Assembly (NCBI GenBank): GCA_030041545.1
Contig: JASHNQ010000021.1
Location: 1 to 55,893, forward strand
Source: a candidate division FCPU426 bacterium
GTDB lineage: Bacteria; Oederibacteriota; Muellerivitia; Muellerivitales; Muellerivitaceae
Length of the DNA: 55,893 nt
Reading direction: 5' to 3'
The translations under genes and the position numbers were made by a program. Below are positions 16,764-23,245 of this stretch, piece by piece. The notes under the pieces were generated by a model that worked only from the letters and a program-made list of their open reading frames with translations, ran no database searches and was not told the origin of the DNA. Every line of letters starts with the position of its first letter. Position 1 is the stretch's first letter.

Positions 16764-17495
16764 ATGCGGCGGCTTTTCGGTTTTCTCATTTTCTTTTTCT
16801 CCCCTTTGGCCGTTTATCCTATTGCCGCGGATGAACCAACTCCGGACACCGGCCTTCGAACCGTTCAACCTCATTCCCCGGCGGAATCCATGAAACAAGT
16901 CGAAAAGGACCCCAGCTTCGTCGACATTTCCACCTTTCCCCACGTGCTCATCGACTTAAGGTACGCCGGCATCAACAACTTCATGAGGACGGATTTGTAC
17001 GGCCCCATCTACGGATCCAATCCCAAGGTCTTCCTGCATAAGGACGCGGCAGCCAAGCTCCTGAAGGCCGTCAAGTTCCTTCAAAAAGAAAAACCCGGTT
17101 GGTCTTTCTTGATTTTCGACGCCTTGAGGCCCCGCTCGGTCCAGTGGAAGATGTGGGAGAAGGTGAAGGACACCCCCCAGAGGAAGTACGTGGCCGACCC
17201 GGCCATCGGCTCGCCCCATAACTACGGCATGGCCGTGGATATCGGCTTGACGGACGGTAAGCACGGGGAATTGGACATGGGCACGGGTTTTGATTCCTTT
17301 ACGCCCCTGGCGGAACCCCGGCTCGAAAAAAAGTTGCTGAAGATGGGAAAGTTGACCCAGCAGCAGGTGGCCAACCGCCTGATCCTGCACAAAGTGATGA
17401 CCGACGCGGGATTCCTCCCGATTTCCCATGAGTGGTGGCACTTCAACGCCCTTCCGGAGCCGGAAATAAGGAAGAAGTACAGGATCGTGGAATAA
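16764..17495 (+). CDS. Secreted D-Ala-D-Ala dipeptidase, VanX/DdpX-like
   Basis: The 243 residues match peptidase family M15D. Key motifs are DLRYAGINNFMRTDLYG, FDALRPRSVQWKMW (substrate-binding Arg), SPHNYGMAVDIGL (zinc ligands His and Asp) and HEWWHFN (catalytic Glu and zinc His). Residues 1-22 (LFGFLIFFFSPLAVYPIAA) form a signal peptide, so unlike vancomycin-resistance VanX the enzyme is expected in the periplasm. It would then serve peptidoglycan turnover or dipeptide scavenging rather than resistance; that is inference. No vanHA-type genes are nearby. Confidence 0.88.
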   Translation: MRRLFGFLIFFFSPLAVYPIAADEPTPDTGLRTVQPHSPAESMKQVEKDPSFVDISTFPHVLIDLRYAGINNFMRTDLYGPIYGSNPKVFLHKDAAAKLLKAVKFLQKEKPGWSFLIFDALRPRSVQWKMWEKVKDTPQRKYVADPAIGSPHNYGMAVDIGLTDGKHGELDMGTGFDSFTPLAEPRLEKKLLKMGKLTQQQVANRLILHKVMTDAGFLPISHEWWHFNALPEPEIRKKYRIVE

Positions 17496-17644: not shown

Positions 17645-19174
17645 ATGCCAACCCCATCGGGGCGCGGTTTACCCCAACCCAACTGCCGTGGAAGAAACCG
17701 GGCTTGTTTGGCTCTCGTCCTGGGATTCCTCCTTTTAACCCCCACGGCCTTCTCCTTCGCCGGACAGGACCCCCTCCGCAAATCGCTCGTCAAGATTTTC
17801 ACGACCATCCAGCGGCCCAGCGGTTCCGAGCCGTGGAGGGTAGGGCCGGAGGAAAACGTCAGCGGCAGCGGCTGCATCCTGCCCGGCCACCGCATCCTCA
17901 CCAACGCCCACGTGGTTTCGGACCAAATCTTCGTCCAGGTGCTCAAGGACGGGGACACCCAAAAATACACGGCCAAGGTCGTGTCCGTGGCGCACGATTG
18001 CGACCTGGCCCTCTTGAAAGTCGAAGACCCGGATTTCTTCAAGGGCACCCGGCCCGTCACCTTCGGAGACCTGCCTTTCCTGAGGGACAAAGTCTATGTT
18101 TACGGCTACCCGGTGGGGGGCGAAGAACTTTCCATCACCGACGGGGTGGTGTCCCGCATCGAAGTGGTCACCTACAGCCATTCCATGAGGACCCTCCTGG
18201 GCGTGCAGACGGACGCCCCCATCAACCCCGGAAATTCGGGAGGGCCCGTTTTCAACAGGAACAGGAAAATGGTGGGGGTGGCCTTCCAGGGCTACAACGC
18301 CATCGTGGCCCAGAACACGGGCTACATCATCCCCACCCTTTTCATCCAAAAGTTCCTCACGGAAGTGAAGGCGGGTAGGGTCTACCGGGTGCCGGCCCTG
18401 GGGCTTTACGCCGAATCCATGGAAAACGAACCCTTGAGGGCCTATTACGGGATGAAAGGGGGACAGACCGGCGTCCTGGTGGCCCAAACCGTCTATGGCT
18501 CCTCATCGTGGGGGAAGGTGAAGGATAACGATGTGCTGCTTTCCATCGACGGCTATCCCATCGCCAACGACGGCACCATCCCCTTCCGCAATGGGGAGAG
18601 GTTGAACTTCCAATACCCCCTGGACCTGCACCTCGTGGGCGACGCGATCAAGCTCAAGGTCTTGAGGGATAGGAGGATCAAGACCCTGGTCCTCCGCCTG
18701 AAGGGTGAGGTCCGCCTGGTGCCTTTCCCCGTCTATGACCGCAAGCCGAGCTATTTCATTTTTGACGGCATCGTCTTCACCGAACTGGGGTGGGATTATT
18801 TCGAATCCGCCAAGAATCCCGACCCCCAATTCCTGGCCCTTTATTATTCCGGCCTGCCCTCGCCGCAACGCAAGCGCGTGGTACTGGTGGACCATATCAT
18901 TCCCCACGCCATCAACAAGGGCTACGGCGAGGACTATACGGACCTGATCGTGACCAAGGTGAACGGCGTCCCGATTTCCGAATTAAAGGACCTGCTCACC
19001 GCCTTCCAAAAGCCGGTGGGGGGCGTGCACGTCATCGAAATCGACAAGGCCTGGGACCTGGGCACCAAGATCGTCCTGAAGGCGGAGGGTTCCCAGCAGG
19101 CTACGGCCGAAATCCTAAAGCAAAACGACATTCCCAGCGACCGCTCGCCGGATTTGATGGGGGCGGCGAAATGA
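17645..19174 (+). CDS. Deg9-type HtrA serine protease (active copy)
   Basis: The protein has 509 residues. A signal sequence (about 20-40, LALVLGFLLLTPTAFS) leads to a trypsin-like domain with a complete triad: His89 in TNAHVV, Asp120 in CDLALLKV, Ser198 in PGNSGGP. Then come a PDZ domain (about 240-350; GVLVAQTVYGSSSWGKVKDNDVLLSIDGYPIA) and a second, divergent PDZ-like domain (about 360-500) of the kind found in plant Deg2/Deg9 proteases. The domain order and wording (GYIIP, IANDGTIPFRNGERL, NKGY) are strikingly like plant Deg9. The ATG at 17645 gives a proper signal peptide. Its stop overlaps the next gene by 4 bases. Role: periplasmic protein quality control, by family. Confidence 0.88.
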   Translation: MPTPSGRGLPQPNCRGRNRACLALVLGFLLLTPTAFSFAGQDPLRKSLVKIFTTIQRPSGSEPWRVGPEENVSGSGCILPGHRILTNAHVVSDQIFVQVLKDGDTQKYTAKVVSVAHDCDLALLKVEDPDFFKGTRPVTFGDLPFLRDKVYVYGYPVGGEELSITDGVVSRIEVVTYSHSMRTLLGVQTDAPINPGNSGGPVFNRNRKMVGVAFQGYNAIVAQNTGYIIPTLFIQKFLTEVKAGRVYRVPALGLYAESMENEPLRAYYGMKGGQTGVLVAQTVYGSSSWGKVKDNDVLLSIDGYPIANDGTIPFRNGERLNFQYPLDLHLVGDAIKLKVLRDRRIKTLVLRLKGEVRLVPFPVYDRKPSYFIFDGIVFTELGWDYFESAKNPDPQFLALYYSGLPSPQRKRVVLVDHIIPHAINKGYGEDYTDLIVTKVNGVPISELKDLLTAFQKPVGGVHVIEIDKAWDLGTKIVLKAEGSQQATAEILKQNDIPSDRSPDLMGAAK

Positions 19175-20808
19175 CCAACTTCCAATTTTTTTACCGCGAA
19201 GGCGCGAAGACCGCCAACAAAAAAATGAACCCCAATGGCAAAGAAAAAAGGATTGGTCTTTTGGCGATTTGGTTTCGGAATTTTGTTCTTCAAATCGTCG
19301 AGCCTTTCTTCGCGTTCTTCGGGACTTCGCGGTTAACGGCCCTTTTTGCCCGTTGGGTTGTTCTTGCCTTTTGCCTGGTTCTCCTGCCGGCCTGCCAGTT
19401 CATGCCGCTCAAGCCCCCGCCGCCTCCGGTGAAAAACATCGAAAAATCGGTCGTCAAGGTCTTCGCCACCTCCCAAAACGTGGATTTCGCCGAGCCCTGG
19501 AAGCCGGGTTCGGAGTTCTCCTTGGAAGGCTGCGGGACCCTATTGCTCGGGGGGCGGGTGTTGACCACCGCCCACTTGGTGGACAAGGCCAACTACATCG
19601 AAGTGCAGAAATTCGGGGAAACCAGGCGATACGTGGCCAAGGTCGAAAAACTGGCCTGCGACCTGGACCTGGCCCTGTTGTCCGTGGAAGACAAGGACTT
19701 TCCCGTTGGCGCCGAGCCGGTGGAATTCGGCGAACTGCCCCAACCCGGGGATAAGGTCGTCCTCCAGGGCGGGGACGAGCTTTCCAAAAAGGAAGACACG
19801 GTCTCGGGGCTGGACATGGTCTGGTCCTGGGAAGCGGAAACGGGAGTCCCGGCCCTTTTGACCGGGTCCGAAATCGGTGAAAAACTGCAGGGGTGCCCGG
19901 TGTTCAAAAACGGAAAGTTCGTGGGCCTGCCCTTTTCAGCCTGGCACAAGGATGAAAAGGTGGGCACGCTGGTTCCCGTCACCCTGGTGGCGGAATTCCT
20001 CAGGGCTGTTGAGGGCGGCCGGGACTATCCCGGCTTGGCGGACTTAGGCCTGGACACGCAAAACCTGAAAAGCCCCGACCTGAGGGCCTTTTACCAACTG
20101 CCGCCGGAAAAATCGGGTGTGGTGGTCACCCAGGTGCTTTATGGGGGATCCTCGGCGGGGGTTTTAAAAGAAGGCGACGTTATCACGGCCGTGGACGGCC
20201 ACACGGTGGACAACGAGGGCTATACCTTTTTGGACAAATTGGGGCGGGTTTCGGTGGACTACGTCATTTCGCTTAAACTGCCGGGGGAAACGGCCGATAT
20301 GGACGTCTCCCGGGGCGGCCAGCCCCTGAAGCTTCAGGTGCCCATCGGGACGGAACCCAAACTGGTACCTTACCGGCCGGACAACCGACACCCCACCTAT
20401 TACATGAACGCTGGCTTCGTCTTCGTCCCCTTGACCTACAACTACCTTTCGATGGATTGGAACAATATGAAGCCGGAACTGAAGGACATTTCCAACCGGG
20501 GCGTCTTGGGCCCGGAAAGGAAGCAAGTGGTGGTTTTAAGCCATGTCCTTCCCGCCGATATCAACGAGGGATACCACTATTTCGCCAACATCATCGTGGA
20601 CAAGGTGAACGGGCGACCCGTCGCCGGGATGAAGGACTTGGTCGAGGATTTCGCCCATCCGGAGGGCCGGTACGACGTCATCGAGTTCGACGACCACTCC
20701 TGGACCGGGTCCATGATCGTTTTTGACGCGAGGAAGGCCAAAAAAGCCACCCGGGAGATCATGCGGGACCTCAGCATCCCCGCTGACCGCTCGGAGGATT
20801 TGAAATAG
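19171..20808 (+). CDS. Deg9-like lipoprotein pseudoprotease (catalytic Ser lost)
   Basis: This is a paralogue of the preceding gene, 545 residues from the overlapping ATG. His135 (TTAHLV) and Asp166 (DLALL) are kept, but the GNSGGP motif has become KLQGCP, so the nucleophile is Gln240. It should not work as a serine protease. PDZ (about 290-380) and the Deg9-type C-terminal domain (about 395-540) remain intact. A lipobox LLPAC puts the lipid anchor at Cys75, far too deep for a normal signal peptide. Residues 1-55 are encoded largely by a family C repeat, and no standard start codon lies close before the hydrophobic segment, so the true start is uncertain. It may be a substrate-binding adaptor for its neighbour. 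Confidence 0.8.
   Translation: MTNFQFFYREGAKTANKKMNPNGKEKRIGLLAIWFRNFVLQIVEPFFAFFGTSRLTALFARWVVLAFCLVLLPACQFMPLKPPPPPVKNIEKSVVKVFATSQNVDFAEPWKPGSEFSLEGCGTLLLGGRVLTTAHLVDKANYIEVQKFGETRRYVAKVEKLACDLDLALLSVEDKDFPVGAEPVEFGELPQPGDKVVLQGGDELSKKEDTVSGLDMVWSWEAETGVPALLTGSEIGEKLQGCPVFKNGKFVGLPFSAWHKDEKVGTLVPVTLVAEFLRAVEGGRDYPGLADLGLDTQNLKSPDLRAFYQLPPEKSGVVVTQVLYGGSSAGVLKEGDVITAVDGHTVDNEGYTFLDKLGRVSVDYVISLKLPGETADMDVSRGGQPLKLQVPIGTEPKLVPYRPDNRHPTYYMNAGFVFVPLTYNYLSMDWNNMKPELKDISNRGVLGPERKQVVVLSHVLPADINEGYHYFANIIVDKVNGRPVAGMKDLVEDFAHPEGRYDVIEFDDHSWTGSMIVFDARKAKKATREIMRDLSIPADRSEDLK
19188..19342. repeat. Family C heptamer inverted repeat at a gene start
   Basis: The left arm ACCGCGAAGGCGCGAAGACC and the right arm, which reads TTAACCGCGAAGTCCCGAAG on the other strand, form an imperfect inverted repeat about 150 bases across. 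It lies within the apparent 5' end of the Deg9-like lipoprotein gene. Confidence 0.6.
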
Positions 20809-20848: not shown

Positions 20849-20921
20849 CACCACGAAGTACACGAAGTAAAGACAATGCTTTTTCAAGACATCTCTGACT
20901 TACTTTGTGTACTTTGTGCCG
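20849..20921. repeat. CACGAAG inverted repeat between convergent genes
   Basis: CACGAAGTACACGAAGTAA near 20852 and, on the opposite strand near 20917, CACAAAGTACACAAAGTAA form arms with two mismatches. The repeat sits between the Deg9-like gene and the convergent PBP1A gene, where it could also act as a two-way transcription barrier. The rest of the 223-base gap shows nothing else. Confidence 0.6.
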
Positions 20922-21031
20922 ATTCACCTTACAAGAAGTTAATGAAATCGGTACTATACCGGCCTCTTTAACAGCTTTATGGAAGGTCGGCATGTGCCCT
21001 TTGTGGTAAGAGGTTGCTTTTGAAATGGCTT

Positions 21032-23245
21032 CTAGAAACCCTCGTCCGGGTAGGCTTCCTGGGCGCCGGTAGCCTTGGGGGCTTCCTCCTCGGCGCCCGG
21101 CGTGGTAGAGGCGCTGGCGGGGGCGGATTTGACCACGGGCTCGTCCATCTCCAGGATGTCACCGCCGGGTTGGGCTGAAACGCCGCCCGCGCCCGTCTCA
21201 CCCGGTACGGCCTCCTCGCCGCCGGATTCCGTGTGGAGGTTGCAGTAGCGGGTGGGCGCCGTTTCCTTCCTGAAAATCTCCTCGCGGGTGCGGGGGCAGT
21301 AGGTCGTGGCCAGTAGCCCCGAATCCAGGCAGATGCGCTTATAAACGAAATCGTTCTCCAGGCCCTTGGGCGGCTGGAAATCATCCGCGGGTTTTCCCTG
21401 CATGGCGGCCTTCATGAACTCCGCCCAGATGGGCGCGGCGGCTTCCCCGCCCGTCTGCTTTTTCCCAAGGCTTTCCCGCTCGTCATAGCCCAGCCACACG
21501 CCGCAGGCCAGGCTGGGGGTGAAGCCGATGAACCAGGCGTCCACGTTGTCATTGGTGGTGCCGGTCTTGCCGGCGGCGGGATAGGTGAACCCCAAGCGGC
21601 GGATGACCCGGCCCGTGCCCTGGTCAATGACGTCCTTCATTGTGTGTACCATGATGTAGGCCACCTCGGGGTCCAGCACCGGCTCGCCCGCGGGCGTGTT
21701 GTTTTCCAGGACCCGACCCGAGGCGTCCTTGACCGTCAGGATGGCGAAGGGTTCCACGCGCACCCCCGCGTTGTCGAAGGCCGAAAAGGCACGCACCATC
21801 TCCTCCAGCGTCACCTCGGAGGTCCCGAGCCCTAAGGTCAGGTTGGGCTTGATGGGAGTGGTTATCCCCAGGCGCCTCGCCACGCTGACCACGGGCTGGA
21901 TGCCGAGTTTTTCCAGGAGCTTGATGGTCACCACGTTGATGGAATACATGAGGGCCGTGTGGAGCGTGGTGGGTCCCCGGAACTTGCCGGAGAAATTCGT
22001 GGGACGCCAAGGCTGGCCCGTGATGGGGTCCGGGTAAACCACGGGCGTGTCCAGGAAGACGTCGGCCATGGTGTAGCCGTTTTCGATGGCGGCGGCGTAG
22101 ATGAAGGGCTTAAAGGCCGAGCCGGGTTGGCGGTGGGCCTGCATGGCGCGGTTGAACACGCTCTTGCGGTAGTCGATGCCGCCGATCATGGCGCGGATGG
22201 CGCCCGTGTGGGGGTCCATGGCCAGGAGCGCGCCCTGGATGGGCTGGTCCACGGGGATATTGGTGAGGCGGTTCTTCTGGGCCACGATCTCGGCGTTTGC
22301 CACGCCCTGGGAAAGGGACTGTTGGGCCGCTTCCTGCATCTTCAGGTCCAGGGTCGTGTAAACCGAAAGTCCTCCCTTATAGACCGCGTTGTCCCCGTAG
22401 CGGGCCACCAGCTGATCCCGGACATACTCCACGAAATAGGGGGCGTTCTGGACCTCGATCTTATTGAGCTCGATGGGGGTATTTCGGGCGTCGGTGGCAT
22501 CCTGTTGGGTGATGAACCCGTGGTCGGCCATGGTTTCCAAGACCAGGTTGCGGCGGGCCAGGGCCTCCAGGGGGTGCTTGTAGGCGTCGTATTCATTCGG
22601 CGCCTTGGGAAGGCTGGCCAGGTAGGCGCACTCCGGAAGGGTCAGGTCTTCCACGTGCTTGCCGAAATAGCTGCGGGCCGCCGATTCCACCCCATAGGCG
22701 CCCTCGCCCAGGTAAATCTGGTTCAGGTACATCTCCAGGATTTCCTTCTTGGTGTAATTGCGCTCGATCTGCAGGGCCAGGAGGATCTCGCGGATTTTCC
22801 GGGAAAAGGTCTTTTCGTGGGTCAGGAAGAGGTTGCGCGCCAGCTGCTGGGTCAGGGTGCTTCCACCCTGCAGCCGCTCGCCGCCCGAGCGGATGTTCTC
22901 GATGAAGGCCCGGACCATGCCGATGGGGTCCACCCCGATGTGGCGGTAGAAACGGTCGTCCTCAATGGCGATAAAGGCGTCCTGGAGGGTCTGGGGGATT
23001 TGTTGGAGGGGCACCAGGGTGCGCTGCTCCAGCCACAGCTGGCTGATGAGGTCGCCGTTGACGTCGTAAATGCGCGTGGCCTGGGAAGGGCTGGTGGTTT
23101 GCAAGAGTTTGATGTCGGGCAACTGCTGCAGTTGGGCGTAAAGGAAGCCGATGCCCACGCCGGCCAGGGCGAAGCCAACGGCGAATACCACTTTCAAGAA
23201 CGTGGTGAAAGGCCGGCGGGCCTTTTCGATTTTCTCGGTGGACAA
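21032..23245 (-). CDS. Penicillin-binding protein 1A
   Basis: This 737-residue bifunctional peptidoglycan synthase has a membrane anchor (about 15-37) and a GT51 transglycosylase domain (about 55-235) with catalytic Glu95 in EDDRFYRH and the GGSTLTQQLARN and RKIREILLALQIE motifs. The transpeptidase domain has Ser376 in SAFK, YSINVVT (SxN) and AGKTGTTND (KTG). The C-terminal 90 residues carry several cysteines (CLDSG, YCPRTR, YCNLH) and an Ala/Pro/Glu-rich tail. The start is a TTG with GAGGAAAG just upstream; no ATG fits. It is transcribed divergently from tyrS. Confidence 0.95.
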   Translation of the reverse strand: MSTEKIEKARRPFTTFLKVVFAVGFALAGVGIGFLYAQLQQLPDIKLLQTTSPSQATRIYDVNGDLISQLWLEQRTLVPLQQIPQTLQDAFIAIEDDRFYRHIGVDPIGMVRAFIENIRSGGERLQGGSTLTQQLARNLFLTHEKTFSRKIREILLALQIERNYTKKEILEMYLNQIYLGEGAYGVESAARSYFGKHVEDLTLPECAYLASLPKAPNEYDAYKHPLEALARRNLVLETMADHGFITQQDATDARNTPIELNKIEVQNAPYFVEYVRDQLVARYGDNAVYKGGLSVYTTLDLKMQEAAQQSLSQGVANAEIVAQKNRLTNIPVDQPIQGALLAMDPHTGAIRAMIGGIDYRKSVFNRAMQAHRQPGSAFKPFIYAAAIENGYTMADVFLDTPVVYPDPITGQPWRPTNFSGKFRGPTTLHTALMYSINVVTIKLLEKLGIQPVVSVARRLGITTPIKPNLTLGLGTSEVTLEEMVRAFSAFDNAGVRVEPFAILTVKDASGRVLENNTPAGEPVLDPEVAYIMVHTMKDVIDQGTGRVIRRLGFTYPAAGKTGTTNDNVDAWFIGFTPSLACGVWLGYDERESLGKKQTGGEAAAPIWAEFMKAAMQGKPADDFQPPKGLENDFVYKRICLDSGLLATTYCPRTREEIFRKETAPTRYCNLHTESGGEEAVPGETGAGGVSAQPGGDILEMDEPVVKSAPASASTTPGAEEEAPKATGAQEAYPDEGF

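Follow-up and report, generated by a model that had tools for sequence, protein, structure and literature searches.

The 55,893-nt stretch of DNA analysed here, hereafter the window, derives from a candidate division FCPU426 bacterium and carries two paralogous genes on its forward strand, both with open reading frames, which overlap by the sequence ATGA (19171-19174) at the start of the second and the stop of the first. The first gene, A (17645-19174), encodes a 509-aa Deg9-type HtrA protease which, according to its open reading frame, Pfam and structure-database matches, consists of a signal peptide, a trypsin-like domain, a first PDZ domain (PDZ1) and a PDZ_3 domain (PF17815; 18719-19153). 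Its catalytic residues His89 (17909-17911), Asp120 (18002-18004) and Ser198 (18236-18238, within GNSGGP) form an intact triad, as in active Deg9/Deg2-type HtrA enzymes, and the alignment identifies a Pro63-Trp64 motif at 17831-17836. The second gene, I (19171-20808; 545 aa counted from the overlapping ATG), retains His135 (19573-19575), Asp166 (19666-19668), a Pro109-Trp110 motif (19495-19500) and a PDZ_3 domain (20365-20799), and it carries KLQGCP where A has GNSGGP, with Gln240 (19888-19890) replacing the catalytic Ser, so that the triad is no longer intact. A lipobox, LPAC (19384-19395), predicts lipidation at Cys75. The overlap, the residues and the lipobox all agree with the original prediction for this locus. 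Judged by these features, I is a pseudoprotease homologue outside the active enzyme family, predicted to have no serine-protease catalytic machinery and to have kept an export signal, the Deg9 layout and the Pro-Trp motif.

Pfam finds Trypsin_2, PDZ and PDZ_3 in that order in both proteins, in line with the two PDZ domains expected for each; the middle PDZ scores at the cut-off in I and slightly under it in A. The best solved relatives are the plant proteins Deg9 and Deg2 (E about 1e-94 and 8e-63 in the searches with A and I, respectively), and the full-length similarity of both proteins to Deg9/Deg2 exceeds that to other HtrA proteins. The earlier description of the second PDZ as best known from plants therefore holds for the closest solved relatives, but PDZ_3 proteins proved commoner in bacteria than it implied. 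A and I share 36% identity across 463 positions, and apart from two DegP-like proteins no further Deg9-type copy was found in the genome. The structure model of I, a single chain built from six sequences, is fairly confident in the protease domain (pLDDT 70-90 in most blocks) and weak in the PDZ parts; its top PDB matches are Deg2 and Deg9, with a TM score of 0.79 against the Deg9 protease domain. Mean pLDDT of the single-chain models, which come from shallow alignments, was 54.6 and 67.1.

The signal-peptide region of I in the window contains a palindromic repeat element (19190-19336) with 32-nt arms (19190-19221 and 19305-19336), an in-frame insertion that lengthens the N-terminus of this copy. 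The element is missing from a 91%-identical relative, and the rest of the genome contains about 55 partial matches to it. A stretch resembling it ('caccacgaag...ctttgtg'-like) lies at 20850-20930, between I and the PBP1A-type gene downstream.

The pair occurs in five genomes of the FCPU426 family in identical gene order, with an overlap of 4 nt in four of them and of 1 nt in the fifth; the two named records L035 and L036 represent relatives of 91% and 70% identity. Every second copy has lost the catalytic Ser, which is replaced by Q, Q, D, Y or H, the other Gln being that of a same-genus relative, whereas Asp is kept in all five and His in three (R or Y in the other two). All five also lack four residues that read GYPx in A (junction at 19767-19768 in I) and contain two invariant cysteines, Cys121 (EGCG; 19531-19533) and Cys242 (GCP; 19894-19896). 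Neither site is a Cys in the FCPU426 active copies, and among all active rows of the alignment Cys is absent from the first site and occurs once at the second. A disulfide between Cys121 and Cys242 is possible, although this is a guess from their joint occurrence. The pair is not universal within the family, since no Deg9 copy was found in one genome (G006) and three others (G003, G001 and G004) hold an additional, unpaired Deg9 copy, which reads His-Glu-Ser where readable. These unpaired copies are L053 (G003:C62), L049/L050 (G001) and L054 (G004); G137 likewise has Glu at the Asp position.

These relatives, together with the selection estimates, bear on whether I is a functional gene. A functionless gene would be expected to approach a dN/dS of 1. 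Between genomes G000 and G002, A gave a dN/dS of 0.112 (bootstrap 0.079-0.152) and I one of 0.088 (bootstrap 0.061-0.134), or 0.070 when only its protease domain was considered, and the unsaturated estimates from other close pairs gave 0.00-0.12 for I. We conclude from these substitution rates that I is evidently under strong purifying selection, to a similar degree as A. The original prediction had named an assembly error behind the Ser-to-Gln change, or frameshifts elsewhere in the second gene, as outcomes that would undo it. The change is real, and I contains neither stops nor frameshifts; the same state recurs in independent assemblies and in a finished Akkermansia muciniphila chromosome. 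With a dN/dS of about 0.09 and nothing found in its favour, a pseudogene or assembly error has a negligible probability, and we rejected it.

That I might have kept enzymatic activity through a rebuilt active site, perhaps one based on the FCPU426-specific Cys242, derives some appeal from the three FCPU426 copies in which His and Asp are both present and from the invariance of this cysteine, but Cys242 sits two residues away from where the nucleophile would be, neither the GNSGGP oxyanion motif nor the GYPx loop survives, and two of the five copies have Arg or Tyr for His. Outside FCPU426, moreover, Cys242 is absent and usually all three catalytic residues have been lost. Cys242 as a substitute nucleophile was rejected for its wrong position and its restriction to one lineage, and a rebuilt enzyme of any kind appears very improbable.

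The same arrangement extends well beyond this family. A search for PF17815 in 384 genomes returned 36 carriers, among them five distant carriers with tandem copies, the second of which was dead in all five. In the phylum of genome G259 the domain is found in 26 of 58 genomes, and in the set around G314 in 370 of 387, with two copies in nearly all carriers of either group. The family TIGR02147, first seen in Fibrobacter, is present in several members of the G259 phylum and in G232, but is missing from three genomes of a single genus that had been suspected to be Fibrobacter. We read 61 contiguous pairs from 59 genomes, counts that represent descendants and not independent events. The first gene has the His/Asp/Ser triad in all 60 readable cases, the remaining one being truncated by a contig end, and the catalytic Ser is present in none of the 61 second genes; its position is occupied by Trp in 12. 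By comparison, all 27 non-paired copies read retain Ser and His. Two genomes, G737 (L147/L148) and G788 (L149/L150), contain two active/dead pairs each. The finished chromosome of A. muciniphila ATCC BAA-835 (G513), in which the species primer AM1 occurs three times, carries one pair: the first gene has the intact triad and the second reads N/N/A at these positions, follows at a spacing of 5 nt and has a lipobox, LGGC.

This distribution speaks to whether I acts together with A or has an independent function, as an exported chaperone or a peptide- or metal-binding protein that is co-regulated with A and makes no contact with it. HtrA proteins can be chaperones without proteolysis, and the protease domain of MamO, the dead HtrA protein of magnetotactic bacteria, has been repurposed toward metal binding, both of which count for such a role. 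However, the 27 non-paired copies are all active; in the only genome read in which a dead copy is the sole match (G491), it is positioned at a contig edge. Gene order is also the same in both lineages of the pair. We consider an independent function rather improbable. Against a fixed partnership stand two genomes (G527 and G655), both with a second PF17815 match, in which no active copy adjoins the dead one within the stretch examined.

The history of the dead copies was addressed with three trees, one of 95 rows (without bootstrap) and two more careful ones of 39 and 55 rows. In all three, the FCPU426 dead copies fall beside the FCPU426 active copies, and the other dead copies fall elsewhere. 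A single clade of dead copies was recovered in 0% of bootstrap trees. The AU test did not formally reject the placement of all dead rows, which are long-branched, in one clade (p 0.093 and 0.087), but it rejected a single clade for the partner A genes alone, whose branch lengths are ordinary (p 0.026; a single test of a group defined after the first tree was known). Long-branch attraction would be expected to cluster all dead copies, so the position of the FCPU426 dead copies beside their active relatives is the opposite of what this artefact would produce. The non-FCPU426 active partners form one clade in the 55-row tree (99/96), which fits one old origin and a second in FCPU426. We therefore disfavour a single common origin of all dead copies, given the bootstrap result and the AU test on the A genes; two origins, one old and widespread and the second inside FCPU426, are favoured by these trees.

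What the dead copies have kept is informative. Nearly every aligned copy has the Trp of the Pro-Trp motif: 65 of 66 dead rows, with a gap in the last, and 92 of 93 active rows; since this residue lies outside the triad, it probably contributes to structure or assembly. Within the G259 phylum, identity among protease domains is 29% for dead copies and 59% for active ones, whereas the PDZ_3 domains are equally conserved (33% dead, 34% active); PDZ_3 has evidently stayed under constraint, and the active site has been released from it. The distance matrices of A and I are correlated overall (r = 0.85; 0 of 5000 permutations) and within FCPU426 (r = 0.97; 42 of 5000 permutations), although much of this parallel divergence is expected from shared genome history alone. 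The genes overlap in 29 of the first 32 pairs, most often by exactly 4 nt, whereas in the 29 pairs read later, which come largely from the order containing Akkermansia, the gap ranges from -50 to +75 nt; the two genes thus overlap in some lineages and closely adjoin in others. The dead copies start with signal-peptide-like sequences. A plausible lipobox was seen in four of the five FCPU426 dead copies and in the eight complete dead copies read from the genus Akkermansia, whereas the FCPU426 copy in G003 and most other dead copies have an ordinary signal peptide and lipoboxes elsewhere are sporadic, in a pattern search that also produced a few false matches. The proposed lipid anchor is accordingly plausible for these two groups and is not a defining feature of the dead copies.

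In the window the pair is flanked by genes with envelope functions, a D-Ala-D-Ala dipeptidase-like M15 peptidase (16764-17495) and a PBP1A-type transglycosylase/transpeptidase (21032-23245). Relatives do not share this neighbourhood: the link between A and I is the only one conserved among the compared genomes, and we dropped the neighbours as a clue to function. Several genomes of the G259 phylum have a gene of about 830 aa close to the pair (L091 2050-4563, L094 7832-10324, L096 6968-9478 and L098 9304-11805); the two that were scanned have no Pfam match, and a gene of about 370-410 aa lies adjacent (a PAS histidine kinase in L096).

The closest functional precedent comes from magnetotactic bacteria, in which active/dead HtrA pairs arose repeatedly and the dead HtrA protein MamO is needed for MamE-dependent proteolysis (PMC4794232). 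The pair described here resembles MamE/MamO and MamE1/MamE2 in that an active HtrA and a dead trypsin-like partner lie within one gene cluster and in that the active site was lost independently more than once. A bulky Trp has been reported in the dead L1 loop of MamO, and here Trp stands at the Ser position in some of the dead copies. Unlike MamE/MamO, the present pair belongs to the Deg9/PDZ_3 subfamily and forms a free two-gene unit in lineages such as Akkermansia. The NCBIfam cut-offs for MamE and MamO (800 bits) are missed by A (57 and 47 bits) and by I (24 and 18 bits); Pfam finds no MamO-type C-terminal TauE domain in I, which ends with PDZ_3. As for a magnetosome gene cluster, the immediate neighbours of the window pair are unrelated genes. 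Moreover, the TauE domain of MamO is required for activation and no direct MamE-MamO binding was detected (PMC4794232), so that this precedent backs the function more than the mechanism.

Other HtrA systems share parts of the arrangement. Plant Deg9 and Deg2 have the same Trypsin_2, PDZ and PDZ_3 architecture but are listed as PD-PDZ-PDZ proteases without a dead partner, whereas here the proteins are exported by bacteria and the active one has a dead paralogue as its partner. In plant Deg7 an inactive, degenerate HtrA domain is involved in trimerization (PMC3473262), which indicates that such a domain can serve oligomerization. As in Deg7, one active and one degenerate HtrA domain would work together here; in Deg7 and Nma111, however, they are fused in one chain, and here they are two open reading frames, each with its own export signal. 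Nma111 is the fungal counterpart of Deg7. The plant Deg5-Deg8 hetero-oligomer also joins two HtrA paralogues (PMC4877387), which are not described there as active and dead.

Taken together, our preferred reading, to which we assign a probability of roughly 0.58, is that A and I constitute one functional unit, a periplasmic or envelope Deg9-type protease with a dedicated non-catalytic partner derived from its duplicate. Most likely, I would be an exported and in places lipid-anchored partner subunit that shapes the assembly, substrate capture or activity of A. This reading is suggested by the fixed pairing, the retained PDZ domains and Pro-Trp motif, export and selection. It further accords with the tight layout, the apparent retention of the pair after both origins, the concentration of identity loss in the protease domain with PDZ_3 spared, and the MamO and Deg7 precedents. 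Several observations weigh against it: part of the parallel divergence reflects shared genome history, activation by MamO came from TauE and not from its protease domain, and in the old lineage the protease domain of I has diverged so strongly that an interface need not survive. In mechanistic terms, I may bind A through the retained protease-domain surface and form mixed oligomers, in which it would dock and place A, and its PDZ domains and, where present, its lipid anchor could bring substrate or membrane signals to A. Proteolysis by A would most likely be promoted or gated in this way; activation, gating and restraint are all possible, and of all steps in this model the direction of the effect is the least secure.

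In particular, I could instead be an inhibitor or decoy that fills subunit positions of A or occupies PDZ ligands and holds A off until a stress signal arrives. An inhibitor would leave the same genetic picture, with closely coupled genes that diverge in parallel and PDZ domains that are kept; sequence cannot separate inhibition from activation, and a dead twin in an operon is a simple way to dilute activity. MamO, the sole tested HtrA precedent, nevertheless promotes proteolysis, and we regard inhibition as unlikely, if less so than an independent function. The original prediction that the inactive copy may recruit substrates for, or tether and regulate, the active one is thus partly supported, being consistent with the retained pair, its fixed order and overlap or abutment, the parallel divergence, the selection on I and the two apparent origins.

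Earlier discussion of active/dead HtrA pairing has, to our knowledge, centred on magnetosome formation and on fused eukaryotic proteins. We found no earlier description of a Deg9-type active/dead pair in the open-access literature searched, in which MamO was the only close precedent among HtrA pseudoproteases, and subscription journals might hold one; the main text of one Akkermansia outer-membrane proteome paper does not mention HtrA, DegP or PDZ.

Finally, an active/dead pair that occurs in dozens of other bacteria, apparently with at least two origins, points to the dead copy as a functional partner of the active one. In a broader picture, which we hold only tentatively and at slightly below even odds, an active Deg9 and an obligate dead Deg9 would form a widespread envelope machine that evolved at least twice and is nearly universal in the Akkermansia-containing order, with the dead subunit controlling assembly, placement or switching. 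The second genes of such pairs are easily misannotated as proteases. That an ordered two-gene unit has apparently originated twice in another HtrA subfamily suggests that a dead partner is of recurrent benefit to this type of protease. Since A. muciniphila is a gut bacterium that is grown in culture and studied in medicine, the pair in its genome makes the purpose of the dead twin directly testable.
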